Source of the DNA: Lachnospiraceae bacterium
GTDB lineage: Bacteria > Bacillota > Clostridia > Lachnospirales > Lachnospiraceae
Assembly: GCA_022781985.1 (NCBI GenBank)
Contig: JALESH010000050.1
Location: 1-64,000 of the forward strand
Reading direction: 5' to 3'
DNA: 64,000 nucleotides
Shown: positions 5,194 to 53,304 of the stretch, piece by piece
Layout of the letters: each line of letters begins with the position of its first letter
Numbering within the stretch: the stretch's first letter is position 1
Program-made: the position numbers and the translations under genes
Notes under the pieces: model-generated
Databases searched by the model: none
Told to the model about the DNA's origin: nothing
What the model saw: the letters and a program-made list of their open reading frames with translations, nothing else

Positions 5194-5247
5194 TGTTCTC
5201 TCCTTTCTCATGAATCATTAATACATGTGAAACAATTTGCTTTACGT

Positions 5248-10602: not shown

Positions 10603-10623
10603 TTGTTTTCCTCCTCTCATGTC

Positions 10624-12522: not shown

Positions 12523-13464
12523 TCATACCCTTTCCCGCCAATAGTCCAAGGTTTCCCTGATTGTCTGTTCCAATGTAATGCCAGGGGTCCATCCTGTTGT
12601 CCGGCGGATCTTTCCGATATCCGCCTCGATCAATGCCACATCCACCGGCCGTATCTTGTTGGCATCCACCTCTACCCGTATCTCCTTTGCGGACAGGCTC
12701 AGGATCAGCCTCAGCACCTCCTGGATACTCACTGCATGGCCACTCCCCACATTGTAGGTCTCCCCTGCGATCCCCTTCTGTATCAGCAGCGCATAAGCCT
12801 CTACCACATCCCTGACATCCGTAAAGTCGCGCTTTGTATTGAGATTGCCCACATACATGACAGGCTCCCGTTTTCCCTTCTCTATCTCTGCCACCTGCTT
12901 GCAGAAATCTGCCACTACAAAGATGGGAGACTGGCAGGGCCCGATATGGTTGAAGGCTCTCACCATCATCAGCTCCATATCATATGCCTTGGCATAGATA
13001 TTGCCGATCATATTCTGGCATGCCTTGGTAGCCGCATAGATATTTCCCGGCCGCAGCCTGTTCTCCTCCGTAATGGGATTCTCCCCTTCCCTGATATGCC
13101 CATACTCCTCTCCTGATCCGATGAGCAGCACTCTCGGCTTGTAATACAGTTCCCTGACGGCATCCATCACATTGATGCTCCCCTTAATATTTACATCCAC
13201 CGTCAGTCCCGGATTCTTCCACGCCACCCCCACCGAGCTCTGGGCTGCCAGATGGAAGATGTAGTCTGGCCTGATCCGGAACAGCAGGCTGACGATTGCC
13301 TCCCTGTCCAGAATATCCAGGTCATATACCTGCACCCCCTTCTTTTCCACCTGCTCGCCGGCAAGCTTGGTCACATGCACTTCCATCCCGCATCCGCAGA
13401 GCAGATGCTCTGCCAAATAACCGCCAACAAAGCCGGCCCCTCCGATTATCAATGCTTTTGCCAT
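12523..13464 (-). CDS. rmd: GDP-6-deoxy-D-lyxo-4-hexulose reductase (GDP-D-rhamnose synthesis)
   Basis: A 313-residue short-chain dehydrogenase/reductase with NAD(P) motif GGAGFVGGYLAEHL at the N-terminus and catalytic YAATK (about residue 143). RAFNHIGPCQSPIFVVADF is typical of RMD proteins, which reduce the 4-keto intermediate made by GMD to GDP-D-rhamnose. It lies directly downstream of gmd, which fixes the pathway step. An alternative, GDP-L-fucose synthase, is less likely because the N-terminal and substrate-loop motifs match RMD. No strong Shine-Dalgarno is seen. A hairpin separates it from gmd. The product is a candidate donor for the rhamnosyltransferase-like GT2/GT4 enzymes of this locus. 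Confidence 0.85.
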   Translation of the reverse strand: MAKALIIGGAGFVGGYLAEHLLCGCGMEVHVTKLAGEQVEKKGVQVYDLDILDREAIVSLLFRIRPDYIFHLAAQSSVGVAWKNPGLTVDVNIKGSINVMDAVRELYYKPRVLLIGSGEEYGHIREGENPITEENRLRPGNIYAATKACQNMIGNIYAKAYDMELMMVRAFNHIGPCQSPIFVVADFCKQVAEIEKGKREPVMYVGNLNTKRDFTDVRDVVEAYALLIQKGIAGETYNVGSGHAVSIQEVLRLILSLSAKEIRVEVDANKIRPVDVALIEADIGKIRRTTGWTPGITLEQTIRETLDYWRERV

Positions 13465-13478
13465 AATTTTACCATGAA

Positions 13479-13500
13479 AGGGAACCCCTTGGGATTCCCT
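13479..13500 (-). terminator. Weak hairpin between gmd and rmd (attenuator or processing site)
   Basis: On the minus strand AGGGAATCCCAAGGGGTTCCCT can fold with AGGGAA pairing TTCCCT, plus inner CCC/GGG pairs, followed by TTTCAT. The T run is short, so it would at best lower read-through into rmd. Confidence 0.3.
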
Positions 13501-13524
13501 TCTCCTATGAATAATTATTCTGTC

Positions 13525-14604
<1,080 letters not shown>

Positions 14605-14626
14605 TTAAAACCACTATTCTTTTCAT

Positions 14627-14655
14627 ATTTTATTATATATATAAGGATTGTGCAA
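14627..14655 (-). promoter_or_regulatory. Candidate promoter upstream of gmd
   Basis: On the minus strand TTGCAC (complement of 14650-14655) is followed 17 bp later by TAAAAT (complement of 14627-14632) within an AT-rich stretch. A second reading (TTTCTT-16-TATAAT) uses overlapping bases. The long leader to the ATG includes a GC-rich inverted repeat (GGCGG/CCGCC). Confidence 0.5.
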
Positions 14656-14676
14656 GAAATTTCCTCTGGAAGTTGC

Positions 14677-15402
14677 TTACAGTATACCGAACAGATTCTC
14701 CCATTCCTCTCCCTCTATCACCCGCTCCGTCACCCTGTCTGCATTCATCAGCATGCTTTCCACCCGGTTTGCCAGGCTTACATCCACAAGCCTTCCTACT
14801 TCTATCCCCCGCAGTTGAAAAAACAGCAGGGGATCCTCATCGAATCTTGCGCCTATGCCATAGAGGACAGAGGCCACATGCTTACACATCAGCGCCCAGT
14901 CGGGGCAGCTGCAGGTGAAACTGATCTCCCTGGCTGAGGGAAACAGTCCGTTCTTCTCTAAAAATATGCTCTTCAACTCCTCCGGAAAGTCTCCCTGCAG
15001 CAGCCTTTCCAGATTTTCTATCCTGCCGCTGCAGCAGTCGATGATTTCCTGGCAGTGTTCCTCACTCAGAGGGCTGATGCGGATCTCCACCTTATAGGGG
15101 GTCTTGCGGCTTCCCTGTACCCGGGCCGATACCCTTCCCTTCTGCAGCCTCAGGTCCACCACAGCCCCGGTGCGCACATATCTTTTCCCCCGTTCCAGCC
15201 GGCTTTCATAGTCCGCATACCGCTCCAGATTCTCACACCAGGATTTTCCCCACCAGTTTTTTGCAATTTCCCTGCCCTGAATGTGCACCGGCTCCAGTGC
15301 CCTCCCCTTTTCCCTTTCCTTCCTGACCGTCTCTGCCGCATTCCTCCTGAGGCTGTCCGCGGAGGGCTGGCTGTAATGGATCTCATCCCAATATCTGCCC
15401 AT
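14677..15402 (-). CDS. SWIM zinc-finger protein, partner of SNF2 helicase
   Basis: A 241-residue protein with start MGRYWDEIHYSQPS; the longer track ORF begins at a TTG inside the helicase gene. Its SWIM motif is CSCPDWALMCKH (about residue 165), the CxCx(n)CxH zinc-binding pattern found in bacterial partners of SNF2 ATPases. Before it lies a basic region with KNWWGKSWCENLERY, common in this family. It starts 5 bp after the helicase stop and uses the AAGGAG at the helicase end as ribosome binding site. It probably binds DNA or helps the helicase. No link to polysaccharide synthesis is evident. Confidence 0.88.
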   Translation of the reverse strand: MGRYWDEIHYSQPSADSLRRNAAETVRKEREKGRALEPVHIQGREIAKNWWGKSWCENLERYADYESRLERGKRYVRTGAVVDLRLQKGRVSARVQGSRKTPYKVEIRISPLSEEHCQEIIDCCSGRIENLERLLQGDFPEELKSIFLEKNGLFPSAREISFTCSCPDWALMCKHVASVLYGIGARFDEDPLLFFQLRGIEVGRLVDVSLANRVESMLMNADRVTERVIEGEEWENLFGIL

Positions 15403-23178: not shown

Positions 23179-26100
23179 TTAATCCGGCCTCCCGAACAGG
23201 TCTGCAATCCATCTGCTCTGCTGATAAAATGGGAAGGTGCTGGTATATACCACCTGGATCTCATGAATGCCCTTTTCCAGCCAGATTCCGGTAAAGCCAT
23301 AATGTACCCTGATTGGTTCTGCCTCCACCCCATCTACCAGATACTGAAAGGGTGCCTTGGACAAAATAGGGAAATAGCATATCCCCTCCTTCTCCATATC
23401 TATGGTACCTTTTATATATTCATCGGAGACAGCTTCCATGCGAAGACAGTTTTTCCGCAAACCTGCAATGTTTTCCCTATAGTCCTGATAGTACTCTTCA
23501 CTGTCATACACACTGAGCCTGAGATAAGGGACAGTGCTCTCTGTGATAGAATCTGGAAAACTGTTTATTCTGATATGGGAGATATCCTCCTGATTGCTCA
23601 GGGTCAGAATCCCCTCTCCGGTTTCCGCATAGCTGCTGATCATCCTGCTTTGCTCCTCAATGTAGTCTCCGTCCCTGCTTCGCCAATACACCTTCATGCA
23701 CTGCTCCATCCCAGGCGCCTCTATATATATCTCCAGGGTATCTCCCGGCTGATTCAGAGCCACCTCAAACTCATCTCCAAAGCTGACATCCCTGTACTCC
23801 CGGCTGACAGAAGGCACAGCTTTTTTTTCATAAGTTTCTTTATCCGGCTCCTCCATATCCAGCTCCTCAAAGACCTCATCCTCCAATACAGCTCCTGCCA
23901 GCAGCACCGACATCTTCTCTCTGATTCCAAGCCTTTCATAATCACTCTCCTTGACTGCTTTGTGATAAATGACGCCCATAGGCAGGAAATACTCATTTTC
24001 GTAGACCTCAATTCCTTCCTCATTATGCTTACGCTCATATCCATAATCCATATATCTGCTTTCTCTGGCAAGGCCATATTTGCATGAGAGTATGGCTGAA
24101 ACATAGGGATATCCATAGGTTCCTGCAAAATATCCGGGCCGGTTGCCATGGGTGGGCAGGCCAAGCTGGTACACCAGCTTCAAAAAGTCCTGGGTCACAG
24201 AGGATAGAGTCCCTGAATAATATGAGGTGCCATTATGGCCCTGAGCCCCTGCATCACTGTACCAGCGGAAATAGGCTTTATTTGTCCTGTAAAAAATATT
24301 GCTGTCCCTCAGACTTAATTTCTCTGATATCTCTCTGGTTCCATCATTGATAAAGCACTCTGCAAACTCTGTCCGATCCAGCGAATCAGAATTATTTATA
24401 AAGCCATAATTAAACAGTACTGCCTCTGCTGAGAGTAATGCAAGGATTCCGGCCTTCACTTTCCATATCGCTCTGTTAGCGGGTTCCATTCTTTTGTATG
24501 CAGACAGCAGCAGCAAATAAAAACAGAAGGCCATATTCACAAGCAGGAAATTTGCAGTGAAAACTCTCTTGCCGCTGATAAATAATATGAATACTCCCAT
24601 GTTAAAGCAGAGCATCACCGTAATGGCGGTGTGAAGCAACAGCCGGTAACAGAAGGATTTCTTTCGCAATATAGCATCATTCAGCACAAGCAATGCAGGC
24701 CACAATAACAGCAGGGTTCCAAGCAGCCGGACATTTTTATAGCCGTAGCCGGAAAATCCCTGCAGCGCAAATCTGAGCTTCGGAAAGCATAAAAGCAGCG
24801 TCAGCAGCAGGCTCCAGCCTGCCCATAAGACTTTTTCCCCTCTCTTCCTTCCGGCAAAAATCTGGGGATACAGCAGCAGACAGAGAATCCCGCATCCAAA
24901 ACTGCCCCCGGTCAGATAATCCAGGGTTCCGAAATACTCTGTATCGCCGGCAATCCCCAGTACAGTATGGCTGACGGTCCGCATAAAGGCACTGCCGATC
25001 AGCTGCAGATTCTCCAGACTGAATATGGGGGGTATGTTTCCCATGGATGCGATATTTTTTATGATGCCATCGTTCTGCAGGACTGCTGATACCGCCCTGT
25101 ATGCAAACAATATAAAAATACACAGAACTCCCGCTGCAAGGAACCAAATCCATTTCACCGTAATTCTTGCGGTGATTTCCTGATAATGATTCAGCAGCCT
25201 TATGGCTGCCCTCATTCCCTCAAACAAAAGCAGGATCCCTGCTGTTACAATGATATAGCTGTCTGACAGGACAAAATACAGAAACAGACCGCTCCCCAGC
25301 AGCCAGCCATATTTTCTTTTCTGCATACATCTTTCTATAGCATACAGAAGCACAGCCAGGGCAATGGCGCTTTCTGCCTGAGAACCCCAAAGTCCGCCAA
25401 CCACCACCTGCGCGCTAAATGCGTAGCATATCCCGCCGATACAGCAGACCGCAGGACACATCTTACTTTCCCAAAGAAAAAGCAGAAAAAACAGACCCGC
25501 CAAGAATATTTTCAGTGCATAGGCTGCCCACAGCAAGTATGGCAGATCTGCTCTGTCGCAAAAAAGAAAGAGCATGGTAAACGGATTTAAGGTAGATACC
25601 TCTCCTCCCAATCCATTTTTAAAGGAATATCCGATCACGTTTCCAAATTCATGGAGATGCTCATTCTGCAGGTAATACATAGGATAAAACTGCACGAATC
25701 CATCAGAGTTCAACTCTGGAAACAGGAAAATACGCTCTCCCAAAAAATACTGATGAAACAAAACCATTATGGCGAGCAGCATAAAGAGCAGAAAGCAGCC
25801 TCTCCAATGCTTTCTGCAGTACATGTAGGGCTGATAGAGCAAATCCAGCTTCTCATCCATAAATCCGGAAAGCTTCATCAACTTCCTGCCCATCCTTCTG
25901 CAGACCCCAGCGGCATACAGCGCCTTCAGCAATCTGTAAACAAAGCCTGCAAGCTTTTGCACGGCTGCTGCAGAAGCCATTCCTGCCAGCAGAACCATCA
26001 CTTTGGTCAGCACGGCGGCCTGGAAAAGATTCTGTTTTAAAATCCCATATTCTCTTTCATAGACATCAGACCTCATCCTCAATATCGGATCCTGGCCCTC

Positions 26101-26526
26101 GGATACAATAACAGCATGGTCTTCGGCCTCTTCTACGGCCGAAACATACTGCACCGGCTGAAAATCCTGCAGCAGGCTCCTAGGCGTTATCTCATACACC
26201 TTCCAGAACAAATAATAAAATTTTACGGAACGGAACTCTACCCTGACAGCCGCCTCCGTCACATCCAGCCGGATTGCTTTCACATCCTCTATGCTGATAT
26301 CCGTGCTGCTTTTGCAGACTCCCATGTTCTCATTGGGAATGCGGATTCTCTGTATATTATTTTTCTCCAGACAGTAGAATAATTCGGTCATGGTTCCGGC
26401 CGGATCGGTGAGATCAAAGGCAACCCCTGTAATGATACCCTTCGGAACCATAATACTTATCAGGATGGCCGCTGCCAGTAACAGGATTCTTATGATGTTG
26501 ATGATAGGTTTTGCTAGTCTATTCAT
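23179..26526 (-). CDS. YfhO-family membrane glycosyltransferase-like protein
   Basis: An integral membrane protein of 1115 residues; the start is MNRLAKPIINIIRI, whose ATG overlaps the upstream GT4 stop by 8 bp. After one helix comes an extracytoplasmic region (about 30-175) that may be a diverged form of the module repeated in the giant YfhO protein (LFYCLEKNNIQRIRIP ... GQDPILRM). Then about 12 helices with YfhO marks such as GERIFLFPELNSDGFVQFYP and SFKNGLGGEVSTLNPF, and a large C-terminal extracytoplasmic beta domain ending FYQQSRW. YfhO proteins are GT-C type enzymes that move a sugar from undecaprenyl phosphate onto cell-wall polymers outside the membrane, fed by CsbB-like GT2 enzymes. 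Confidence 0.85.
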   Translation of the reverse strand: MNRLAKPIINIIRILLLAAAILISIMVPKGIITGVAFDLTDPAGTMTELFYCLEKNNIQRIRIPNENMGVCKSSTDISIEDVKAIRLDVTEAAVRVEFRSVKFYYLFWKVYEITPRSLLQDFQPVQYVSAVEEAEDHAVIVSEGQDPILRMRSDVYEREYGILKQNLFQAAVLTKVMVLLAGMASAAAVQKLAGFVYRLLKALYAAGVCRRMGRKLMKLSGFMDEKLDLLYQPYMYCRKHWRGCFLLFMLLAIMVLFHQYFLGERIFLFPELNSDGFVQFYPMYYLQNEHLHEFGNVIGYSFKNGLGGEVSTLNPFTMLFLFCDRADLPYLLWAAYALKIFLAGLFFLLFLWESKMCPAVCCIGGICYAFSAQVVVGGLWGSQAESAIALAVLLYAIERCMQKRKYGWLLGSGLFLYFVLSDSYIIVTAGILLLFEGMRAAIRLLNHYQEITARITVKWIWFLAAGVLCIFILFAYRAVSAVLQNDGIIKNIASMGNIPPIFSLENLQLIGSAFMRTVSHTVLGIAGDTEYFGTLDYLTGGSFGCGILCLLLYPQIFAGRKRGEKVLWAGWSLLLTLLLCFPKLRFALQGFSGYGYKNVRLLGTLLLLWPALLVLNDAILRKKSFCYRLLLHTAITVMLCFNMGVFILFISGKRVFTANFLLVNMAFCFYLLLLSAYKRMEPANRAIWKVKAGILALLSAEAVLFNYGFINNSDSLDRTEFAECFINDGTREISEKLSLRDSNIFYRTNKAYFRWYSDAGAQGHNGTSYYSGTLSSVTQDFLKLVYQLGLPTHGNRPGYFAGTYGYPYVSAILSCKYGLARESRYMDYGYERKHNEEGIEVYENEYFLPMGVIYHKAVKESDYERLGIREKMSVLLAGAVLEDEVFEELDMEEPDKETYEKKAVPSVSREYRDVSFGDEFEVALNQPGDTLEIYIEAPGMEQCMKVYWRSRDGDYIEEQSRMISSYAETGEGILTLSNQEDISHIRINSFPDSITESTVPYLRLSVYDSEEYYQDYRENIAGLRKNCLRMEAVSDEYIKGTIDMEKEGICYFPILSKAPFQYLVDGVEAEPIRVHYGFTGIWLEKGIHEIQVVYTSTFPFYQQSRWIADLFGRPD

Positions 26527-30504: not shown

Positions 30505-31437
30505 CTACAATTCAACCGTTTCCTTTACACTGTAGGGCGTATCCACATGCACCCCATAATATGTCTTGATCATAATCTCACTCATCAGGCCCAAGATAAA
30601 CATCAGCAGGCCTATGATAATAAAAAATACCGTCAAAATAACCGGGATGATATTGTTTGACATTTTATATCCCAGCATAAACAGCAGCACGGACCAGATC
30701 CCGCACCAAAAGCCCATGAGCAGGCCCATGATGCCAAAGCCTCCCAGAATATGCAGAGGCCTGGTAGCATATTTGTTCCAGAACCAAACCGAGATCATAT
30801 CTACAAAGCCCTTCACAGTCCTGTGCCAGTTATATTTTGTAGTCCCCTGGGTACGGGGTCTGTGATTGACCACCACCTCCCCTACTCTGAAGCCCTTTAT
30901 TTTCAGCAGCGCCGGGATAAATCTATGCTGCTCCCCATACAGGTTCACACCATTAAAGCACTCTTTTTTATAAATCTTCAGGGAGCACCCGCTGTCATGG
31001 ATGCCGTCCTTGACTAAGATCCCTCTCAGAAAATTTGCCCCCCGGGAAACAAATCTTTTCATAAAGGTATCCTTACGGTTCTTTCTCCACCCTGATACTA
31101 CATCCAGTCCATTCTCCACCAGATACTCCAGCATGGCGGGAATGTCCGCAGGATCATTCTGCCGGTCTCCGTCCATTGTCACTATATAATCATATTTTGC
31201 AGCCTTGATCCCTGCATCCATAGCAGCCGTCTGGCCAAAATTCCTGCGCATGCAGATATATTTTAAAGGCCTGAGAGTCCGGCATATTTCATCTGTCCTG
31301 TCCCTGGAGCCATCGTTGATAAAAATAATCTCATACTCATAGCCCTGGCTTTCACAGACCTCCTTGATCTCCTTGTGCAGGCCGCTGACGTTTCCCTCTT
31401 CGTTATATACCGGCACTACTACTGATATCCTGTACAT
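30505..31437 (-). CDS. Polyprenyl-phosphate glycosyltransferase, GT2 (GtrB/CsbB-like)
   Basis: A 310-residue GT-A enzyme: MYRISVVVPVYNEEGNVSGL, DGDRQNDPADIP as catalytic DxD-like motif (about 90), HDSGCSLKIYKKECF (about 150) and two C-terminal helices. It shares its plan with the GT2 at 10624-11595 but is clearly diverged, so the locus encodes two different undecaprenyl-phosphate-sugar synthases. It sits between the DUF2142 membrane gene and the CapK-like gene, so its lipid-linked sugar may feed the DUF2142 or YfhO proteins. The pairing is inferred from location. Confidence 0.92.
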   Translation of the reverse strand: MYRISVVVPVYNEEGNVSGLHKEIKEVCESQGYEYEIIFINDGSRDRTDEICRTLRPLKYICMRRNFGQTAAMDAGIKAAKYDYIVTMDGDRQNDPADIPAMLEYLVENGLDVVSGWRKNRKDTFMKRFVSRGANFLRGILVKDGIHDSGCSLKIYKKECFNGVNLYGEQHRFIPALLKIKGFRVGEVVVNHRPRTQGTTKYNWHRTVKGFVDMISVWFWNKYATRPLHILGGFGIMGLLMGFWCGIWSVLLFMLGYKMSNNIIPVILTVFFIIIGLLMFILGLMSEIMIKTYYGVHVDTPYSVKETVEL

Positions 31438-31468: not shown

Positions 31469-33388
31469 TCATGTCAAACATAAAATACCGCCAAATAAAA
31501 ATGAATAAACCGATAGGCAGCCGACAGCGCATAAAATCACCTTCATGGCCTTCCTATCATAAATCCCCCTATAATACACACAACTGCAGACTGCCAATAT
31601 AAAATTGATGGCAAACAGATACCTTCCCTGGGGCTGAAAATCAGACGTCCAGGAGTGCCACAGCGATATGCCGGGTACCGTTGCGCCCAGACACATCAGC
31701 AGACAGAACAGCGTCCGCCTCCCTGCGCCCCGCCCCGCCACCATGGCCCGCCACAATACAGCCAACAGGCTGACATACATGATCCCCATAAGAACATAAT
31801 ATGCATATGGGCTCTCATACTCCATCCAACCGTAATTTCCCGCATAGGATCGGTAGGAATGCTCCAGGAAGCCATACTCCTCAACCACTTCTTTCAGTCC
31901 GACTCCCTGCCCCCGCAGACCAACTCCATCCCAGATCCCCTGGAGACCGGCTCCTTTTGCCTGAGCTTCCGTATTTTTTTCAGCATAGACTTCTCTCTGC
32001 TGGGATGCGATCTCACTTTTATTCCCGCCATAAATCCGGGAATCCATGTATTGAGTCCCGCCATATACCGACAGACATACGGCTACGATTATAGCATATT
32101 TCAGGATGATTTGCATCCTTTTTTTTCTCACCGCACTCAGCATACGCCATAATAAGAGTAAAAAGGAGGCCGCAAATACAAAATAGTAATTCTTCTTGCC
32201 CAGAAGCAGGGTTCCATATAAAGCTCCTATCAGAACCAGACTGCCTGCGGCTCTCTTAAAGGAGGCTGCTTCCATGGCCCTGTGAAACAGGCTGCCCTTC
32301 ACCGTAAGCTGATACAGGATAAGAAAACTCAGAAAATAATCCCATCCATCCGAGGTAGCATAGGAAAAGATGTACCAGACCTGAGGCGTAAGCCCCAGCA
32401 TCAGGAATAAAAAACCGTTTTCTCTTCCCTTTTTATAGTAAACTGCCGTCATCATGACAAACAGCAGCACATTGAATGCCCTGTAATATTTGCTCAGCCC
32501 CAATATGTTTTTGGCGAACCAGGCTGCCTTACCTGCCAGAAAATAATAAAAGGTAGTCTCGCTCAATCTGGAATTCCCATAGGCAGAAAAGCTGTCCGCT
32601 GCCTCCGGACTGCGGATGTCAGCCGGCAGCCAGTTCGTCATGTAATAGTCCACCGCAGCCTTGCTCATATTCTCATCCGGGTGGGCATAGTCAAAGCTGT
32701 TAAAAGCCATAACTGCAGCCAGAAGCGCTGCCGCCGCCAGAATGACCCTTGTAATGATGTGGTAATGCGCCGATATGTAACTGACCGCTGCCCTTACATA
32801 TTTCCCATAGAGGACACCTGCTGCCGCCAGGATCCCTGCTGCTGTGATCCAGCCGGAGAGCGCTGCCCTGAGCCTGGTATTGCAGGAGGCGAAATATTCT
32901 TCCACCATATCCTCCCCAAAGACGATGATCGGGTCATCCCCCTGGGGCCTGATCAGCAGAAGCCCCCGTTTCACCTCCGGCTGCTCCATGCGGTAAAACT
33001 CAGCCCTCTTCCATATCTCCCTCATGGGGATCAAACCCATGCCGATCCCATGGTTTCTGACCTGGATGGAAGTGATGGCTGTCCCGGCCTCCCGGTCCGT
33101 AGGATCCAGCCTGAGTCCCGTGACCCTATCTATCTCCTCCCCCAGCTCCAGCACTGCCCGGTTGCGCTTCACCTTACTGACGCTGGACTCCTCGCCGGAA
33201 TAACTCCCATCTGTCTTCCAGAACAGCTGGGCCTGAAAGCTGTTGTCATACTTCCTGGAGCTGTATTCCACCCTGATGCTCAGCTCATCCTCTATGGGCA
33301 GCAGCCACACCAGGCCGGCAGATATCAGAGCTGCCGCCAGGATCATGCCGCATATCATGAGTTTGCGCACTGTATTCCTTTTCTCCAT
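31469..33388 (-). CDS. DUF2142 family membrane protein (GT-C-like) with N-terminal extracytoplasmic module
   Basis: A 639-residue polytopic protein. After one helix (residues about 10-30) an extracytoplasmic domain (about 35-175) contains AQLFWKTDG, VTGLRLDPTD and RPQGDDPIIVFGED, recognisably the same module that is repeated four times in the giant YfhO protein of this locus. About 10-12 helices follow, with FDYAHPDENMSKAAVDYY (acidic loop of GT-C enzymes, about 245), GLTPQVWYIFSYATSDGWDYF and WHSWTSDFQPQGRYLF. DUF2142 proteins are thought to be lipid-linked sugar transferases. It follows the methyltransferase gene by 63 bp, a gap that contains tandem repeats. Confidence 0.83.
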   Translation of the reverse strand: MEKRNTVRKLMICGMILAAALISAGLVWLLPIEDELSIRVEYSSRKYDNSFQAQLFWKTDGSYSGEESSVSKVKRNRAVLELGEEIDRVTGLRLDPTDREAGTAITSIQVRNHGIGMGLIPMREIWKRAEFYRMEQPEVKRGLLLIRPQGDDPIIVFGEDMVEEYFASCNTRLRAALSGWITAAGILAAAGVLYGKYVRAAVSYISAHYHIITRVILAAAALLAAVMAFNSFDYAHPDENMSKAAVDYYMTNWLPADIRSPEAADSFSAYGNSRLSETTFYYFLAGKAAWFAKNILGLSKYYRAFNVLLFVMMTAVYYKKGRENGFLFLMLGLTPQVWYIFSYATSDGWDYFLSFLILYQLTVKGSLFHRAMEAASFKRAAGSLVLIGALYGTLLLGKKNYYFVFAASFLLLLWRMLSAVRKKRMQIILKYAIIVAVCLSVYGGTQYMDSRIYGGNKSEIASQQREVYAEKNTEAQAKGAGLQGIWDGVGLRGQGVGLKEVVEEYGFLEHSYRSYAGNYGWMEYESPYAYYVLMGIMYVSLLAVLWRAMVAGRGAGRRTLFCLLMCLGATVPGISLWHSWTSDFQPQGRYLFAINFILAVCSCVYYRGIYDRKAMKVILCAVGCLSVYSFLFGGILCLT

Positions 33389-33422: not shown

Positions 33423-33467
33423 TAGGGACTTTCCCTTTAGGGACTTTCCTTTTAGGGACTTTCCCCT
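33423..33467 (-). repeat. Three 15-bp tandem repeats spanning a stop codon
   Basis: TAGGGACTTTCC(C/T)(T/C)T occurs three times head to tail (33423-33437, 33438-33452, 33453-33467). On the minus strand each unit reads (A/G)GGGAAAGTCCCTA-like, encoding Glu-Ser-Pro-stop, so the gene's own stop codon sits inside the repeat and further copies add no coding sequence. A palindrome GTCCCTATAGGGAC (33416-33429) overlaps the outer copy. Confidence 0.85.
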
Positions 33468-35083
33468 GAACTGCCTGCCCCTTTGCCGAACAGCTTCCGC
33501 AGCGGCGCCGTCACCTTCCAGGAGCCTGATCCTATCACGCTGTTATAGGCCTCCTCATACAGATCAGCCCTGGCCTGCTCCTGGGCATACTGATGACGCA
33601 TGTCTTCTTTTTCCTGAACCGCAGCGTCCTTCTCCGAGCGCAGGCTGTCCCTCTCTGCGCGCAGGTCATCCCTTTCCCGGAGTGCAGCATCCTTTTCCAC
33701 CGCTATTGCATTTCTCTGTTCTGCCGCCCTCTGGCACTCCCGGGCGATCCTGTCCCTTTCCTCCTCCGCCCTTTCCTTATCCCGGACGGCATCTGCCCTG
33801 GCGTACAGGGCTGCCTCCTTCTCCCGAATGGCATCGACGGCTCTCTGCTCACTCTCACGGACAATCTTATCCATCATGCTGAACATCAGCCCTCTTTCCT
33901 CCGGATATATGACAATATCCGCCTCTATTCTGAGCCACCGGATCTGTTTTCCGCCTGCATCGATAAAAAACTGAGGATCGTCCCCGGGAAAGACAAACCA
34001 GCCGTCATGCGCCCAGGCGCCCACCGGCGAAAAGGGCAGCTCTCCCTGATCGGAGCAGATGCTGACCCCTGATATCATGCAGCAGCAGCCCTCTAAGGGA
34101 TCAAACCTGAAACCTGACACAGACCGGGATATTTCATACTCATAAGAAATATGAAGCTGATTGCCGGCTCCCATCAGAGTCTCCCGTTCCAGCTTGTCCT
34201 CCTCCCTCCAGCCCCTGCCCTCGTCCATATACAGGAAGCTCTTCACCTGCCTGCAGGCTCTCCTTCCGCAGAGTGCTTTCAGATCCTGCAGTCCCCGGAG
34301 CATCCCTTCCCTTCCGTCAGCTCCGTTTCCTTTCTCAAAGACTGCCTGCATGGAAGCTGCCAGCTCCTCTGCCAGCGCCTTATCCTTTGACATCAGGAGA
34401 AAAACCCGGTAATTGCTTTCTCCCACATCATGAAAATAGATATCCTCTCCATAGTACTCCTCCAGAGCCGCCAGATAGCCCTCTGCCCCCGGAACGTCAT
34501 AGGCTCCGAACAGGGCCTTCATCCACTCCTCCCAGAGGAGGATATCTCCATGCTCAAAGCCTGCATACCCTATTTTTTCCCGGTCCAGAATCTCCTTCGT
34601 CCTGTCCCATTCAGGAAGGCCGTTCTCTATATGCTCTTCAAGCCATATATGGTTCTTTCCATATATGGCTTTATAGTAGCTGTTGGCCCGCTTCTCTGCC
34701 AGCTGGTTCCTGCCGTTGGCAAAGGGAAAGCAAAGAATCGCCAGCTTTCCGGCCACTCTGCTGATTTCTTTTAGAAAGTCGGCACGCTTTTCCTCCGGCA
34801 CATGCTCAAATACATCCAGTGCCACCGCCACATCGTAGGCCCCGGTTTCTACCTGGGGCATATTTGTGCCGTCCAATACAATGAACCTGTCGTCTCCCTC
34901 TCTCTCCCTGGGGATCTCCAGGCAGGAATACTGTATCCTTTCCTCCGGCAAAGCCTCTCCCAGATTGCACTGGCCGTTGCTTCCGATCTCCAGAACAGAC
35001 ACCTGGGAGAGTCCCTTCCGTTTCTTTAATTCCTCTACAATTAGCTGTACCGTCTTATACCTCTGAAACTGATCAAATGACAT
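33452..35083 (-). CDS. SAM-dependent methyltransferase with long C-terminal coiled coil
   Basis: A 543-residue protein. The start is the ATG giving MSFDQFQRYKTV, preceded by GGAGGA. Residues about 30-140 form a class I methyltransferase: VSVLEIGSNGQCN (SAM motif I), FIVLDGTNMP, YDVAVALDVFEHVPEE. The middle (about 230-400) is of unknown fold. Residues about 410-505 are a charged heptad-rich coiled coil (VRDKERAEEERDRIARE). The end, GSGSWKVTAPLRKLFGK, is a motif found at the tail of many polysaccharide-locus enzymes. It may methylate the terminal sugar, a classical chain-length cap read by Wzt-type exporters. Its gene overlaps the Wzt gene by 11 bp, which fits that idea; the coiled coil could act as the molecular ruler. 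Confidence 0.85.
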   Translation of the reverse strand: MSFDQFQRYKTVQLIVEELKKRKGLSQVSVLEIGSNGQCNLGEALPEERIQYSCLEIPREREGDDRFIVLDGTNMPQVETGAYDVAVALDVFEHVPEEKRADFLKEISRVAGKLAILCFPFANGRNQLAEKRANSYYKAIYGKNHIWLEEHIENGLPEWDRTKEILDREKIGYAGFEHGDILLWEEWMKALFGAYDVPGAEGYLAALEEYYGEDIYFHDVGESNYRVFLLMSKDKALAEELAASMQAVFEKGNGADGREGMLRGLQDLKALCGRRACRQVKSFLYMDEGRGWREEDKLERETLMGAGNQLHISYEYEISRSVSGFRFDPLEGCCCMISGVSICSDQGELPFSPVGAWAHDGWFVFPGDDPQFFIDAGGKQIRWLRIEADIVIYPEERGLMFSMMDKIVRESEQRAVDAIREKEAALYARADAVRDKERAEEERDRIARECQRAAEQRNAIAVEKDAALRERDDLRAERDSLRSEKDAAVQEKEDMRHQYAQEQARADLYEEAYNSVIGSGSWKVTAPLRKLFGKGAGSSGESP

Positions 35084-36419
35084 GCTCTCCTCCATCTACT
35101 TCCCATCTGTGGCTCATCTTCATGAAGCCCATCTCCTCCGTAATGCCGGTGATCTCAAACTCATTTACCGTATCCATGTAATCCACGATCAGATCCAGAC
35201 CTCTGGCAATACATACATCCACAAAATATCTTCCCGGCAGCAGCTTGTTGTTGTCAAAGCAGACTCTGGCCCTTCCGTCCTTCTCAATGGCAAACTCCTT
35301 CACCCTGTCCACCCTGGTATTGCTTCCGTAGCAGCGCGTCCCGTCGATACGGAAGATACTGAGTCCGAAGATGGCCTGCTCTATCCTCTCATAGGTCTCA
35401 TAGGTGATTTCAAATATGATGTCCTCCCCACTGCTGAAATTATACTTCTCCTCCCCCTTACTGTTATAGCTCCTGATGGATTTCATCCGGGCCTCCCCGC
35501 TGCCCCTCCGCAGGGCCGCAGGCTTCTCAACGCACTCCTGACTCTGTTCCGCTTCCTCCCGGGCTCCTCCGTCCGCTTCCCCGCCTTCAGGCTGCCCGGG
35601 GCTGTCCTCCCCGGAGGCTTCCACGCTTCCGGCCTCCTCCTGCTTTCGCCCTTCCTGCTCATTCAGGGTCTGCCTGCGCTTTTCCTCCATGAATTCCAGG
35701 TAGGCATTGTGCACCTCCCTGGGCGTCCCATCCATCCGGATCAGCCCCTCATGGATCCATATGGTTCTTTCGCAGATCTGCTCGATCTGACCCAGAGAAT
35801 GGGAAACCAGCACGATAGTAGTGCCCTTTTTCTTGATTTCCAGCATTTTATTAAAGCATTTATTCTGGAAGTTGGCATCTCCCACTGCCAGAATCTCGTC
35901 AATCAGCAGAATATCTGCATTCACGTTGATCGCCACGGAAAAGGCCAGCCTCATATACATACCGGAGGAATAGGTTCTCACCGGATTGTCGATATAATCT
36001 CCCAGCTCCGAAAAATCAATGATATCCTGCAGCCTGCTGTCGATTTCCTTTTTGCTCAGGCCGAAGATGGATGCATTGATATAGATGTTGTCCCTGCCGC
36101 TCATATCCGGATGGAAGCCCGCCCCCAGCTCCAGCAGGCTGGACACCCTTCCGCACATCTCTATGCTGCCTGCATCAGGAAACATGATCCTGGTCAGCAG
36201 CTTCAGCGTAGTGCTCTTTCCGCAGCCGTTGTGCCCGATCAGGCCGATGGCCTCTCCCTTCCTCACCTGGAAGCTGATGCCCTTGAGCACCCATCTTTCC
36301 TCGTATTTGTTCCGACTGCGGAAAATAACCTTTTCCTTCAGCAGAGCCCCTTTATCAAAATAGATCCTGAATTTTTTTGTTATGTCACTGACCTCTATTG
36401 CATTCTCCTGGTTCTTCAT
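35073..36419 (-). CDS. wzt: Polysaccharide ABC exporter ATPase with C-terminal glycan-binding domain (Wzt)
   Basis: A 448-residue ATPase; start ATG at 36419 shares one base with the permease stop (TGATG), with GGAGGA upstream. The nucleotide-binding domain has GLIGHNGCGKSTT (Walker A, about 65), YSSGMYMRL (signature) and ILLIDEILAVGD (Walker B, about 180). A long acidic low-complexity linker (about 255-320; EEAGSVEASGEDSPG and on) leads to a Wzt-type beta domain (about 325-445; FDNNKLLPGRYFVDVCI). In known systems this domain recognises the modified end of the finished chain. The linker is longer than I would expect for the family. Product: export of the complete glycan across the membrane. 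Confidence 0.94.
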   Translation of the reverse strand: MKNQENAIEVSDITKKFRIYFDKGALLKEKVIFRSRNKYEERWVLKGISFQVRKGEAIGLIGHNGCGKSTTLKLLTRIMFPDAGSIEMCGRVSSLLELGAGFHPDMSGRDNIYINASIFGLSKKEIDSRLQDIIDFSELGDYIDNPVRTYSSGMYMRLAFSVAINVNADILLIDEILAVGDANFQNKCFNKMLEIKKKGTTIVLVSHSLGQIEQICERTIWIHEGLIRMDGTPREVHNAYLEFMEEKRRQTLNEQEGRKQEEAGSVEASGEDSPGQPEGGEADGGAREEAEQSQECVEKPAALRRGSGEARMKSIRSYNSKGEEKYNFSSGEDIIFEITYETYERIEQAIFGLSIFRIDGTRCYGSNTRVDRVKEFAIEKDGRARVCFDNNKLLPGRYFVDVCIARGLDLIVDYMDTVNEFEITGITEEMGFMKMSHRWEVDGGEHVI

Positions 36420-37195
36420 CACAGTTCCTCCGCAAATCTTCTTTTGAGCCTGCTGAAGCTGAAGCAGCCGAATGCCAGCACCGCAAGGCCCAGCAGCACC
36501 GCATTCAGCAGCGTCCCCAGCTGGGGCGGCCTCTTATAATAAAGGATGTCCCTGTACGCCACGATAATAGATGTCATGGGGTTGAGATGGTACAGCCCCC
36601 GAAGCTCCTCCGGAACCATGTCCACGGAATACAGCACCGGCGTCATATACATCCATGCCATTCCTATGATGTTGAAGATCTGCTCCAGATCCCTGATATA
36701 TACGGTGGCAGCCGCGCCAAACATGGTGATTCCCAGGGCCAGTATATACTCAATGGCCATGACCAGGGGCAGATAAAGCAGGGCCTGCAGGCTGACTCCC
36801 ATCCCGGATATAAAAACCACGGCAAAAATCACCACAAATGCCAGAACCATGTTGACAAACTGGCTGGTGGCAAAAGCAACAGGCAGCACCTCCCTGGGAA
36901 AATAGATCTTTTTCACCATATCCTCCTGGGAGAATATGACTCTGGTGCCACCTCCCAGGCAGGTATTGAAAAACATCCAGGGTATCAGCGCCACAAAGAG
37001 AAACAGATAGTACCTGTCTATATTCATCCGCATGATGATCGAAAAAACAACAGTATATACGCCAAGCTGCAGCAGCGGATTGATAAAGGTCCACATGAAG
37101 CCCAGCACGGAGCCCTTGTACCTCCCTCTCAGATCCCTTCTGATCAGGCTGAATATCATTTCCCTGTACTCAATTATTTCTTTGATTGTCTTCAT
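36419..37195 (-). CDS. wzm: Polysaccharide ABC exporter permease (Wzm)
   Basis: A 258-residue ABC-2 type permease with six predicted helices, the normal size for Wzm/TagG-like proteins. RRDLRGRYKGSVLGFMWTFINPLLQLGVY (about 18-45) is the hallmark N-terminal signature, and MTPVLYSVDMVPEELRGLYHLNPMT (about 190-215) the periplasmic-side loop. It pairs with the ATPase immediately downstream (one-base overlap) and follows a large GT2-GT4 fusion gene by 14 bp, placing chain synthesis and export together. Confidence 0.95.
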   Translation of the reverse strand: MKTIKEIIEYREMIFSLIRRDLRGRYKGSVLGFMWTFINPLLQLGVYTVVFSIIMRMNIDRYYLFLFVALIPWMFFNTCLGGGTRVIFSQEDMVKKIYFPREVLPVAFATSQFVNMVLAFVVIFAVVFISGMGVSLQALLYLPLVMAIEYILALGITMFGAAATVYIRDLEQIFNIIGMAWMYMTPVLYSVDMVPEELRGLYHLNPMTSIIVAYRDILYYKRPPQLGTLLNAVLLGLAVLAFGCFSFSRLKRRFAEEL

Positions 37196-42698: not shown

Positions 42699-45600
42699 CT
42701 ATCTGTATTTCAGAAGGATCTCATGGCTTCCTGCTTCCAGCCCAAGTGCCATAAAGCCCACATTGGCATGGATCAGCTCCTGCTCCTCACCATCCACATA
42801 GGCACTCCAGTCCTCATCATAAGGGATGGTAAATACCATGATACCGTCCTTCTGAAGATTCGCACTGCCCTCTATCCGCTCCTCCTCAAAATGAGTCAGC
42901 TTCAGGCTGCCCTCACTTCTTTCCTCTGTAAGCACGGCAAAATCTGCATAATACACCTCCTGGGGAATCACGTACAGCTGGGCCTCTGCAATCTCATAGG
43001 GCTTTCTCGTATTGGCCAGGATGGGCACCCTGTCCGTTCCCGCCATCATAAATTCCATATAGTGGTCATTCTCACCCTTCACCAGAGTCACATCTGTGCT
43101 GCCCTGCAGCACATTTCCCTGCATATAATAGGCTTCTGCCCGGGCATCCTCCTGCGCACTCATTCTCACCCTGAGGATAGCCACCTCACCCTCCTCCAGG
43201 GGGGCAAAGGCAATCTCCTTCTCATCCAGGCTGACTGCCGTCCTGTATGCCTGCCATTGCTCCGCGAAAGTCTCGTAGGAGCCCCCTGCCTTCACCCCCT
43301 CAGGAAGAAGTCCTGTCTCTCCCTCCCGGATCACACACTGCTCCAGCATGATATTGCGCCTGTCCACATAATTATATTCCAGAAATTCCCCTTCCGTCAT
43401 ATACTCATCATAGACATAGCCAAAGGGAAGGGCGTGCTTATTCTCATACAGCACGATACCATCCTTTTCCGACAGATATTCCAGGCCATAGGTATTCGGC
43501 TTCTGATTTTTGGTCAGTACATATTTCACATTAAAAAGTGCATTCACCGCCGCATTTTGTTTTGTCCCCTTCTGGATATGGTCCATCACCGGCAGACCCA
43601 GGCAGCTGTACAGTCTCTGGGTATGGTCGTTGTCACCCACACCGCCTATATAAGAGGCAGTCCCCCTGTATCTCTGGTACAGGGAATCGCAGTAGGAAAC
43701 GGAGGTAAACTGCTTATCCACCCGATAGAACTCCCCCTCTTCCCCCACTTTGGCCAGCAGCTCACCGGTGGCATCATTGTAGTATATCTTTTCCTCCAAT
43801 ACCTCTGTATTCAGCCCGGCCTTATTATTGATGATCCTGTAGGAGGAGCCTGCCACCTCTGCCGCTGCGGCGATCACCAGCAGATAGCTGAGGTATGCTT
43901 TTTTCTCCCCATCCTTTTCCCTCATCAGCAGAAACAGCAGCAGGGAAAGAAAAGCGCAGAAAACCAATGCTATGGCCAGATAAAATATCTGTATCCCTTC
44001 CTTGAAAAAGAGAACGGACAGAACCAAAAGGACAATATTGGTACCCAGCAGAATTTTGCCGGCCCTGTCTGCCCCGATCCCCTCCTTCTCCTGCCACAGC
44101 GCTGCTGCGAAGAGCAGAAGCAGCACGATGACCCAGAGGGAGGACAGCTTCCATCCTATACCTGCAAATCCGTTTGCTACATTCCGTACCACCCCGAACG
44201 CATTGTAAATGACTGCTCCTGCCAGGGGCAGCATATACCAGCGCCGCTTCCTTTTGTTCATGGCACACAGGCCAAGGGGTGCCAGCGCCACTGCTGCCAG
44301 ACCGCAGTAGAACACCGGATCCTCCAGCCAGTTGGTAACACCTGCATAGGTATCCTCAAACATTCCCAAAATGTCCGGGCACAGCAGTCTGTAAAACATG
44401 ATGCGATAGCCGGGCAGCCTGGTATAATTCAGGATATTCTTCCATTCCCCGGCCACCTGGGCTCCCGTGCTCACTCTGGAGCTTCCCAGCATCTCTGTCA
44501 GGGAAGGCAGCCAGGCTGCCAGGGAAACCGCCGCCCCCGCCAGCACGATCCCCGTCAGCTTCAGGATACATTTAAGAGGATTTTCCGTCTCTCCCGGTTC
44601 TGCCGCCTCCTCCCTGCCGGAGCAGAACCGGAAGACTCCGTAGGCCAGTCCTACCCCGGTGTAGAGAACGGCCGTATAGCCGTGGTAATTCCAATAGCAA
44701 AAAATATTGGCAAGGAAAAACGGCAGCCATTTCTTTGTTTTTTTAAAGCGCTCAAATCCCCATAGCCACAGAGCCAGGCAGACAGCCTCGTTGGGATAGC
44801 TCTGCCACATTCCCCGGGCCACAATATAGCTATTGCAGGAATACCCTAGGCCCAGCAGGCTGCTGCCCAGCTTCCCTGTCCCCAGCCGACGCAAAAAGCA
44901 ATAGAAGAACATACCGGCCAGAAATATTTTCAGCATCTGGGCAAGCCCCATGGCATAAGCCAGATGCTCCCTGCCGAACAAAGCACAGAAATTTTTCAGG
45001 GACAGAATGATGGGCTCCTCTGCATTCCCAAGGGACTCATAGAAGGTATAGCTCCATCCCCACTCTCCATTGCCGATCCTGTCAGCCAGATGAGCCAGCT
45101 GGGCATAGGTCTGATAAAAGGAATCTCCCATATAAAGAAAAACTCTGTCTCCCGGCAGAAAATCCTGAAACAGGACAAAAATCATGCCTGCCAGCAGGAT
45201 TCCATAGCACAGCAGAGCTATCCTGTCATCCTCTGCGCGCTCCTTTACCCAGCCATAGAGCCTCCGCAGCAGCGGCAGTCTGTCAGCCATCACCACCAAA
45301 AAGACCGGCACCATGACGGCCGCCAGCTTAAGAAAATAATCCGTCACAATATGCTCTGTGATAGCCCGGGACAGACGAATGCCAAAATACAGGACAGGAT
45401 CGTCCCCGGACGGATCCACATAATAGGTCTCTCCCGTGCTGCAGACTGCCTCCACTCCCTCACTGCCCACCACACAGGCCGCCAGCTCATCTGCAGAAAA
45501 GGCTCTGGACCACCGCTGCCCCTGATACAATTCAAAGGAGGAAATTTCTACCTCTTTGTCTGCAGCTATGATATCCAGGCGCCACTCCTTGTTCCAGCCC

Positions 45601-47651
45601 AGCATCCCTGCCTGGATCGGAAGAGAGACCCTTCTTCCGTCAATCCGAGCCTGATAGAACTGCTCCTGGGTAAAGCCCTCCCCTGTATTCCACCAGAAGA
45701 TTTCTGTAATATTGCCTGTATGGTCCTCTGTCAGCTCCAGCTTCAGCGTATAATCTGTATACCTGGGTGCCAGGGCTCCGGCACAGACCAGGAACAGCAG
45801 CCCCATAACCGCAAGCCTCCATCTGTTTCTGCCTATCCATGCATATATCCATCCTACTCCCGGTAAGGTGTCCCCCGTAACCAGGAAAAGGAGTATCAGG
45901 GCTGCCAATGACAGACCCAGGCAATATTCTGCAAAGACCTCCTCCAGAATCGTCCGTGAGAGACGCACTCCAAAAAAGACAGCGGGGTCATTTTCCAGGG
46001 GGGTTAAAAAATACCCACCCTCTGTGCAGTAGGCAGTCTCCACCCCCTCACACCTTATCATGTATGACTCCAGCTCATTTGCCGGAAAAGACCTGATCTG
46101 GCGGTGTCCCCTGTACAGGCCAAGGGCTGTGATCTCTGCAGCGGCATCCGAATTTACCGGATCCAGGCGCCACTCCCTATCCCATCCCAATGCCCCGTTC
46201 TGCAGCGGTATCACAACCTGGTTTCCAAAAATTACAGCTTGGCAGGACTGTTCATGGGTGAATTCCTCCCCCTCCTCCCACCAGTACAACTGGGCATAAT
46301 CCCCCGTTCTGTCCTCAGACAGCGCAATCTGCAGGGAATAATCCTCTGACCTGGGCAGGGTTATCACGCCCCAGGCCGTCGTCAGCAGCACAGCGAAAGC
46401 CAGCCTGCCCTTCTTCTGCAAAATATATTTCCATAAAAAGGCATAGGCACTCTTTAACCCGGGGAGCCTGTCTCCTATGGCCAGGATAAAAATCACAACA
46501 AAAACCATCCACAGTCTCATCAGGTAATGACAGGCAATATCCTTTCTCAGGCTTTGGGACAGGCCGGCGCCGAAGTACAGGACAGGATCATCTCCCGCCG
46601 GCTTGATATAATAAGCCTCCCCGGTGCTGCCAATGTTCTTCACGCCTGCACAGCTTATGATGTACTTCTCCAGCTCGTCCGGGGAAAATCTCCTGCTCCT
46701 CTCATGCTCCCTGTAGACATCAAAGGACACAATGCTCACATCCATATCGGCATCTATGATATCCAGACGCCATTCCGTATCCCGGCCCAGTATCCCCCTC
46801 TCCAATGGCATCAGGATCTGTCTCCCATAGATCGGAACCTGAAGGGACTGTTCCTGGGCAGAGGCCTCCCCCTGCTTCCACCAGAAGAGCTGGGCATGCT
46901 GCCCCGTCCTGTCCTCAGCCAGCCTGATCTGCAGGGAATAATCCTCTGAATGGGGCAGGGCCATGATGCCCCAGAGAGCCGTCAAAAGCACTGCAATGCC
47001 CAGCCTGCCCTTACTTTTCCATAGCAGGGCAGTTATCCGCCTTACTCCGGGCAGCCTGTCTGCTGTGATCAGCAGACAGAGAGCCAGAAAAACCAAGGCC
47101 AGCTCTTTTTGATAGCTTCGCTCCATGTGCCTGATAATATCCCGGGAAATACCTGTACCGAAAAAGATGGCGGGATCCTCCCCCACTGGCTTGATATAAT
47201 AAGCCCCGCCTGCGCTGCAGGCCGTTTCTATGCCTGCGCGTCCCACCTCATAGGAAGCCAGCGCATCCGCCGAAAAATTCTTACGGAAGCTGTCTCCCTT
47301 ATATAGGTCAAAGGACAGGATGCTCACCTCCAGATCCGCATCCACAATATCCAGCCTCCACTCCTTGTCGCGGCCCAGCATTTCCTCCCGGAGGGGGATG
47401 ATCACCTGCTTTCCGCAGATCGCTGCCTGAAAGGACTGCTCCTGAACTGCCTCCTTCCCTGCATCCCACCAGAAGATCTGTGTACTGCAGCCGGTTCTGT
47501 CCTCACCCAGCTCAATATGCAGGGAAAAGTCCGTGGCTTTGGGCTGCATGCCCAATGCACAGACCAAGAACAGGATCAGTATGATCCCTGCTCTGATACA
47601 TGCCTGCTTCCAATTTATCCTCTCTGATAGGCTCCTGATTTTCTGATTCAT
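42699..47651 (-). CDS. Giant YfhO-family protein with four tandem membrane-anchored extracytoplasmic modules
   Basis: A 1650-residue membrane protein. The start is MNQKIRSLSERIN: its ATG overlaps the upstream GT4 stop as ATGA; the track's first 98 residues are antisense-like read-through. Residues 15-805 consist of four units of about 196-200 residues, each with a helix, an extracytoplasmic domain (about 40-172, 236-368, 436-566, 632-764) with EDRTG, FWW, EWRLD and DDPxxxFG motifs, and a second helix ending ADRLPG or GDRLPG. The YfhO core follows (about 12 helices; RVFLYMGDSFYQTYAQLAHL, SLGNAEEPIILSLKNF), then a C-terminal beta domain (AYVDGEEQELIHAN). The core is a GT-C type side-chain transferase; the modules probably bind glycan. 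Confidence 0.88.
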   Translation of the reverse strand: MNQKIRSLSERINWKQACIRAGIILILFLVCALGMQPKATDFSLHIELGEDRTGCSTQIFWWDAGKEAVQEQSFQAAICGKQVIIPLREEMLGRDKEWRLDIVDADLEVSILSFDLYKGDSFRKNFSADALASYEVGRAGIETACSAGGAYYIKPVGEDPAIFFGTGISRDIIRHMERSYQKELALVFLALCLLITADRLPGVRRITALLWKSKGRLGIAVLLTALWGIMALPHSEDYSLQIRLAEDRTGQHAQLFWWKQGEASAQEQSLQVPIYGRQILMPLERGILGRDTEWRLDIIDADMDVSIVSFDVYREHERSRRFSPDELEKYIISCAGVKNIGSTGEAYYIKPAGDDPVLYFGAGLSQSLRKDIACHYLMRLWMVFVVIFILAIGDRLPGLKSAYAFLWKYILQKKGRLAFAVLLTTAWGVITLPRSEDYSLQIALSEDRTGDYAQLYWWEEGEEFTHEQSCQAVIFGNQVVIPLQNGALGWDREWRLDPVNSDAAAEITALGLYRGHRQIRSFPANELESYMIRCEGVETAYCTEGGYFLTPLENDPAVFFGVRLSRTILEEVFAEYCLGLSLAALILLFLVTGDTLPGVGWIYAWIGRNRWRLAVMGLLFLVCAGALAPRYTDYTLKLELTEDHTGNITEIFWWNTGEGFTQEQFYQARIDGRRVSLPIQAGMLGWNKEWRLDIIAADKEVEISSFELYQGQRWSRAFSADELAACVVGSEGVEAVCSTGETYYVDPSGDDPVLYFGIRLSRAITEHIVTDYFLKLAAVMVPVFLVVMADRLPLLRRLYGWVKERAEDDRIALLCYGILLAGMIFVLFQDFLPGDRVFLYMGDSFYQTYAQLAHLADRIGNGEWGWSYTFYESLGNAEEPIILSLKNFCALFGREHLAYAMGLAQMLKIFLAGMFFYCFLRRLGTGKLGSSLLGLGYSCNSYIVARGMWQSYPNEAVCLALWLWGFERFKKTKKWLPFFLANIFCYWNYHGYTAVLYTGVGLAYGVFRFCSGREEAAEPGETENPLKCILKLTGIVLAGAAVSLAAWLPSLTEMLGSSRVSTGAQVAGEWKNILNYTRLPGYRIMFYRLLCPDILGMFEDTYAGVTNWLEDPVFYCGLAAVALAPLGLCAMNKRKRRWYMLPLAGAVIYNAFGVVRNVANGFAGIGWKLSSLWVIVLLLLFAAALWQEKEGIGADRAGKILLGTNIVLLVLSVLFFKEGIQIFYLAIALVFCAFLSLLLFLLMREKDGEKKAYLSYLLVIAAAAEVAGSSYRIINNKAGLNTEVLEEKIYYNDATGELLAKVGEEGEFYRVDKQFTSVSYCDSLYQRYRGTASYIGGVGDNDHTQRLYSCLGLPVMDHIQKGTKQNAAVNALFNVKYVLTKNQKPNTYGLEYLSEKDGIVLYENKHALPFGYVYDEYMTEGEFLEYNYVDRRNIMLEQCVIREGETGLLPEGVKAGGSYETFAEQWQAYRTAVSLDEKEIAFAPLEEGEVAILRVRMSAQEDARAEAYYMQGNVLQGSTDVTLVKGENDHYMEFMMAGTDRVPILANTRKPYEIAEAQLYVIPQEVYYADFAVLTEERSEGSLKLTHFEEERIEGSANLQKDGIMVFTIPYDEDWSAYVDGEEQELIHANVGFMALGLEAGSHEILLKYR
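45237..47609 (-). repeat. Four tandem ~590-600 bp coding repeats inside the YfhO gene
   Basis: Each unit encodes helix, extracytoplasmic domain and second helix. Approximate units are 47609-47022, 47021-46422, 46421-45831 and 45830-45237. Units two and three remain similar at DNA level (for example CAGGGAATAATCCTCTGA occurs at both about 46334 and 46934, 600 bp apart), so at least one duplication is recent. Units one and four are more diverged. Confidence 0.85.
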
Positions 47652-53285: not shown

Positions 53286-53304
53286 CTCACCCACACTCCT
53301 TTAC

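Follow-up and report, generated by a model that had tools for sequence, protein, structure and literature searches.

A single family of modules of about 130 residues is carried by three GT-C enzymes and one methyltransferase of a surface-polysaccharide locus. The locus occupies the minus strand of the window, the whole stretch of 64,000 nucleotides analysed here, which comes from a genome of 2.4 Mb with close relatives among the Lachnospiraceae. Seven module copies are present in the window, with that of the methyltransferase included (Table 1). The module is a real, undescribed and widespread accessory domain, for which we infer a role in recognition. No description of the family, of tandem membrane-anchored arrays or of a spread over two membrane faces was found in the literature searched, and among the libraries searched neither Pfam nor NCBIfam holds a model for the module.

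Table 1. Module-bearing proteins, module copies and neighbouring genes in the window.
Feature	Coordinates	Strand	Evidence
DUF2142-like protein, predicted GT-C enzyme, 639 aa	31469..33388	-	ORF; HPDE at start of first catalytic loop, DFQPQGRY near C-terminus
Module of DUF2142-like protein (aa 36-166)	32891..33283	-	HMM, hhalign, AF2 strands, hydropathy; TM1 aa ~12-30, TM2 aa ~169-193
Giant YfhO protein	42699..47648	-	Four TM-module-TM cassettes ahead of YfhO core; Pfam YfhO from aa 820
Giant module M1	47112..47531	-	Weakest of four; independent HMM i-E 0.1
Giant module M2	46521..46943	-	Independent HMM i-E 3e-9
Giant module M3	45921..46343	-	Independent HMM i-E 9e-9
Giant module M4	45333..45755	-	Independent HMM i-E 3.5e-10; AF2 pLDDT 87
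Second YfhO protein (YfhO2)	23179..26526	-	Pfam YfhO 8.3e-44, from aa 247
N-terminal module of YfhO2	26047..26421	-	HMM i-E 6.7e-12
Possible weak half-module, C-terminal ectodomain of YfhO2	23530..23736	-	i-E 0.0042
Methyltransferase - module - coiled-coil-like protein, chain-terminator-like layout	33452..35095	-	Methyltransf_11 4.7e-5
Module copy of methyltransferase protein (aa 282-394), presumed cytosolic	33914..34252	-	HMM 0.042 and 3.7e-5; hhalign Prob 94
GT2 with C-terminal hydrophobic segments, GtrB/CsbB-like	30505..31437	-	Pfam
Wzt (with Wzt_C domain) and Wzm, ABC exporter of polymer	35073..37195	-	Pfam

In the DUF2142-like protein the module is extracytoplasmic and lies between the first two membrane helices. 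The initial annotation had proposed that the same module recurs in the giant YfhO protein and perhaps in YfhO2. The motifs it quoted are present in the translations (AQLFW, VTGLRLDPTD and RPQGDDPIIVFGED, with LFYCLEKN...GQDPILRM in YfhO2), and a tblastn search of the genome itself aligned aa 21-163 of the DUF2142-like protein with the giant protein (27% identity, E 1.4e-4). For SIGNIFICANCE, 79 relatives of the DUF2142-like membrane core were gathered from other genomes. An independent HMM was built from 43 long GT-C N-termini found in other organisms; the window protein and its ortholog (locus L032, 68% identical) were kept out of it. This HMM was then used to search every window ORF of 100 aa or more in the six frames (111 in total). 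It matched the giant YfhO protein in four stretches (E 2.5e-31), YfhO2 (1.5e-15 in full; 6.7e-12 for the best domain, the N-terminal stretch) and the DUF2142-like protein (7.5e-11). The next ORFs were the methyltransferase at 0.042 and a decoy ORF at 0.27, and the best reversed ORF reached 1.4. Profile-profile comparison (hhalign) of the DUF-type family gave Prob 97.7 with the giant modules and 96.5 with YfhO2; the window protein and its ortholog alone gave 96.2 with the giant modules, and a second run with the DUF2142-like module gave 97.5 (E 5.7e-12). Reversed and column-shuffled controls reached at most 4.4%. The proposed sharing of one module by all three proteins is borne out by these comparisons.

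The methyltransferase copy was reached from the other direction. An HMM made from 11 cytosolic-type copies alone matched the giant protein (3.8e-9), the DUF2142-like protein (1e-8), the methyltransferase (1.7e-5) and YfhO2 (0.0014), with the next ORF at 0.55, and the cytosolic-type and extracytoplasmic profiles matched each other at 98.5%. Pairwise identities between modules are low, ranging from 14 to 27%, and the sequence of YfhO2 taken alone, outside family profiles, gave a pairwise probability of 6-7%; it is the family profile alone that makes the link of YfhO2 to the other modules secure. These low values would suit a convergence of generic β-sandwich sequence in place of homology. Matches of about 1e-10 and better with an independent profile, clean reversed, shuffled and six-frame decoys, the same strand order and the same position between TM1 and TM2 all speak against convergence, which we judge extremely improbable as a general explanation and which is already refuted for the giant and DUF2142-like proteins. 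A weak half-module match (KVYWRSRDGDYIEEQS...ISHIRIN) was also seen with four profiles in the C-terminal ectodomain of YfhO2, and a fainter one in the giant protein. It may be that the module and the C-terminal β-domain of YfhO are distant paralogues.

The fold of the module was modelled with AlphaFold2. In the DUF2142-like protein it consists of seven strands, a helix, four strands and a helix between TM1 and TM2, and giant module M4, modelled from YfhO-type sequences only, has the same strand order. The two models come from separate alignments and were compared by strand order. The module is thus predicted to be a β-sandwich. In hydropathy profiles each module is flanked by a pair of helices, and the loops on the opposite side are short and mostly basic, which by the positive-inside rule places the GT-C modules outside the cell. 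The GT-C cassette can be described as a membrane helix, a β-sandwich and a second membrane helix, set ahead of the catalytic core. The best-conserved residues of the module are the R and D of R-x-D-P (about 90%), which could have a structural role; conservation is centred on the RxDP and DDP motifs and not on aromatic platforms. Foldseek of the module alone against the PDB gave nothing below 1e-3 (best DUF4425 at E 4.9e-3, with galectin, GH16 and C2 weaker), so no known CBM was matched with confidence at E<1e-3; a viral structure library likewise gave no match with E<1e-3. The module alignment gave no match by sequence in the PDB. PF17689 (Arabino_trans_N) was matched by 0 of 30 module sequences at E<=1 and by none in the genome itself.

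The enzyme assignment of the DUF2142-like protein comes from its relatives and its model. The protein itself matches no Pfam family at E<=1, DUF2142 included, while PF09913 was matched by 25 of 66 members of an alignment that comprises the window protein alongside 65 relatives found in other genomes (best E 1.1e-12). Judged from this alignment, the DUF2142 label would be right at the family level only. The whole-protein AlphaFold2 model from the 66 sequences (pLDDT 91.7, pTM 0.85) found EmbB as its best PDB match by Foldseek (E 3.7e-4, prob 1.0), with Pmt4, ALG3 and AftA weaker; the full GT-C alignment, searched by sequence against the PDB, gave no match. These structural matches point to a GT-C enzyme, with sugar transfer predicted. 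D238 and E239 of the HPDE motif are invariant across the 66 sequences and form an acidic motif in the core's first extracytoplasmic loop.

Among the 79 GT-C relatives, 69 have a long N-terminus carrying the module. The 10 relatives without it, among them L067 and L075, have an intact core, begin about 35-50 aa ahead of HPDE and keep the catalytic motifs, and module presence changes 3 to 6 times on the tree of GT-C cores. These results demonstrate that the GT-C cassette is removable, and the reading of one module, with a fold of its own and present on each of the three GT-C enzymes, holds. Across phyla, the GT-C module and its enzyme are inherited together. Modules M1-M3 of the giant protein match the window DUF2142-like module better than they match 76-77 of 77 other GT-C modules. 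The window module also ranks high against unrelated loci, with a mean of 0.80 as compared to 0.93 for its own locus (p 0.08, values non-independent), and the likeness of M1-M3 is therefore no evidence of locus-specific matching. Co-evolution of modules within the locus was accordingly rejected as unproven. The initial annotation had treated sharing inside one locus as a signal in its own right, a point that is not supported, given inheritance across phyla and the near-equal similarity of modules from unrelated loci.

Iterated HMM searches of the flanks and about 600 sampled genomes were used to assess the occurrence of the module elsewhere. At the stringency used, and with the own genome in each count, it was found in 7 of 295 genomes of the order, a figure that includes three marginal matches rejected as modules, and in 7 of 300 genomes of the phylum. 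Matches in G343, G332 and G413 (E 5e-4 to 9e-3 with the first rough profile) are not counted; the long ORFs nearby read as P-type ATPases. The module is uncommon at this stringency, and it is spread over many glycan-assembly proteins in several phyla. It occurs on YfhO and DUF2142-like GT-Cs, where Methylococcaceae and Syntrophus have as many as three copies in tandem, and tandem copies are also found on another deltaproteobacterial GT-C. Other bearers include a polytopic PMT-like protein (L069), a DUF6056 protein with two C-terminal copies (L129), an Acyl_transf_3 protein (L099) and Wzm-type ABC permeases (L030, L130). A sulfatase/LTA-synthase-like protein from another family of the order (L026:1795-5097, minus strand) has two N-terminal modules, each between membrane helices. 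Expected to be cytosolic are GT2 enzymes (L047, L084), methyltransferases with a coiled coil, some of them GT-fused (L101, L130, L132, L133), and kinase-like proteins (L031, L129, L131). One protein of the L129 locus (13033-15285, minus strand) has an N-terminal module together with a WbsX domain and a GT2 stretch; the DUF6056 and kinase-like proteins of that locus are also module-bearing. The companion domains lie on both membrane faces and all belong to glycan assembly.

This range of companions bears on the earlier suggestion that the three GT-C enzymes share a module because they act on the same lipid-linked donor. The flanking helices hold all three GT-C copies next to the membrane surface, where a module binding such a donor, or undecaprenyl phosphate, might be expected. 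By family chemistry, most companions elsewhere (methyltransferases, GT2s, kinase-like proteins, an acyltransferase, the LTA-synthase-like sulfatase and ABC permeases) do not draw on lipid-linked, polyprenyl-phosphate sugars. Module-less GT-C relatives keep their catalytic motifs, and with two GtrB-like GT2 genes in the locus more than one donor is likely. Donor binding is for these reasons improbable, and the shared-donor claim is not upheld. The other half of the same reading, a common polymer and a recognition domain, is plausible.

The neighbourhood of the DUF2142-like gene provides further context. The methyltransferase protein, which has a repetitive charged C-terminal tail and a coiled coil read from sequence only, is encoded beside Wzm and a Wzt with a Wzt_C domain, and resembles the chain terminators or rulers typified by WbdD and Klebsiella O7, here in a genome of Gram-positive type. 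Its coiled-coil repeat length differs from that of the ortholog L032:7933-9864. The L032 locus is syntenic (Wzm-Wzt-methyltransferase-GT-C-GtrB-like-GT4 ... YfhO), with the GT-C/GT2 pair kept. By analogy with the CsbB/YfhO paradigm (PMC8035078), the GT2 is a candidate maker of the lipid-linked donor for the adjoining GT-C. A GtrB neighbour within 400 bp of the GT-C was present in 4 of 79 loci, and the GT-C/GtrB-like pairing is therefore local to the present lineage. Another YfhO protein (L010:5452-8934) is encoded at a second locus in this genome. Its single module shows 43% identity to a stretch of the giant protein's module region, and it adjoins a second long polytopic protein (L010:3588-5600). 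Elsewhere on the minus strand of the window, secreted proteins (3739-5211, 5367-8258, 8296-10620 and 51270-53294) share three SLH-like C-terminal repeats (e.g. FSDV...NWKY...YVYENGIMNGI). These repeats suggest anchoring to a secondary cell-wall polymer, which might be the product of the present locus.

The glycan chain appears to be the common denominator of the module-bearing proteins, and the module would therefore hold or recognise the polymer or its end. On balance we favour, with some reserve, a substrate-holding, CBM-like accessory of surface-polysaccharide assembly enzymes, with putative glycan binding. Such a module would most likely bind the chain, or the group at its end, during growth or export, or guide it to the active site; a comparable role has been proposed for the CBMs of EmbB/EmbC. 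In the cytoplasm the methyltransferase-module-coiled-coil protein would cap and measure the chain, and Wzm and Wzt would then export the capped chain. Outside the cell the DUF2142-like and YfhO enzymes may decorate it, each with its own lipid-linked sugar, that of the DUF2142-like enzyme being supplied by the adjoining GtrB-like GT2; the four tandem copies of the giant protein could provide a multivalent grip on a long chain. The homology with its controls, the shared strand order, the removable cassette, the tandem copies, the glycan-assembly companions and the presence of Wzt_C/Wzm and of the GT-C/GtrB-like pair in the locus all fit this role. A review has suggested that large GT-Cs, AftD and YfhO among them, bind acceptor polymer through their extracellular domains (PMC8035078). 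Counting against a chain-holding role are the lack of a confident CBM match and a module likeness not demonstrably greater within the locus than elsewhere, since a strongly polymer-specific module might show more of it. In EmbB, acceptor binding is assigned mainly to the C-terminal CBM and not to the N-terminal CBM that matches the present architecture (PMC7341804).

A bolder form of the chain-holding role makes one glycan-recognition β-sandwich the handle by which terminator, exporter, decorating and ligating enzymes grip one chain on both membrane faces; tandem membrane-anchored arrays would then serve extracytoplasmic decoration as a multivalent clamp or ruler. We put this forward tentatively, as possible but doubtful. 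The same distribution could be read as that of a structural or protein-interaction domain, not sugar-binding, that assembles the polysaccharide machinery by joining GT-C with GT-C, exporter or terminator. The module is on nearly every protein kind of such machines and on both membrane faces, its conservation lies in the RxDP and DDP motifs rather than in aromatic platforms, and complexes of terminators with polymerases are known (PMC11231755). However, copies on opposite membrane sides in one locus cannot touch directly, and tandem copies within one protein suggest ligand multivalency. We regard a scaffold of this kind as unlikely, if still deserving of weight.

Which part of GT-C enzymes selects the acceptor polymer has been named an open question (PMC8035078). 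The module is small, deletable and naturally present or absent in similar enzymes, and acceptor selection is therefore directly testable with it. It also connects enzymes that are annotated separately (YfhO, DUF2142, DUF6056, Wzm and terminators) and offers a searchable signature for polysaccharide-assembly proteins that have no Pfam domain.

Several known systems can be compared with the module. In EmbB the first two helices anchor an N-terminal CBM ahead of the GT-C core (PMC7341804). In the mycobacterial arabinosyltransferases EmbA/B/C the N-terminal CBM (PF17689) is likewise a β-sandwich, which an additional pair of N-terminal membrane helices holds ahead of the core, and EmbB is the protein that the full model matched best; it differs in that neither PF17689 nor a PDB sequence is matched here and in that the present module is in places absent, tandem or on cytosolic proteins. 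β-sandwich CBMs on GT-C enzymes are already known, and it is the present sequence family, its tandem arrays and its two-face spread that are undescribed in the papers and libraries searched. The Klebsiella O7 terminator ORF6 is a methyltransferase-kinase-CBM-coiled coil protein whose CBM-like domain lies between the catalytic domains and the coiled coil (PMC11231755). In architecture, the window methyltransferase and those of L101, L132 and L133 share this domain position, as well as an ABC-transporter-dependent pathway; the window protein differs in being without a recognisable kinase domain. In ABC-dependent export, the capped end of the chain is recognised by Wzt_C (PF14524), a carbohydrate-binding domain at the C-terminus of the exporter ATPase. 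A carbohydrate-binding domain of this type is present in the locus, and the Wzt itself (35073-36422) is not detectably of the module family (E 3 with the module HMMs). The DUF2142 (PF09913) and WpsJ-WpsI-like proteins of lactococcal cell-wall polysaccharide loci, whose assignments are predictions, are, by relatives, of the same polytopic family (PMC12599335); the window protein is below Pfam detection, and its module is outside the core conserved with module-less relatives. As in YfhO (PF09586) and the CsbB/GtcA/YfhO glycosylation systems (PMC8035078), two window proteins have the full YfhO core, and they differ in carrying cassettes N-terminal to the YfhO model, four in the giant protein, as an addition to the Pfam-defined protein.
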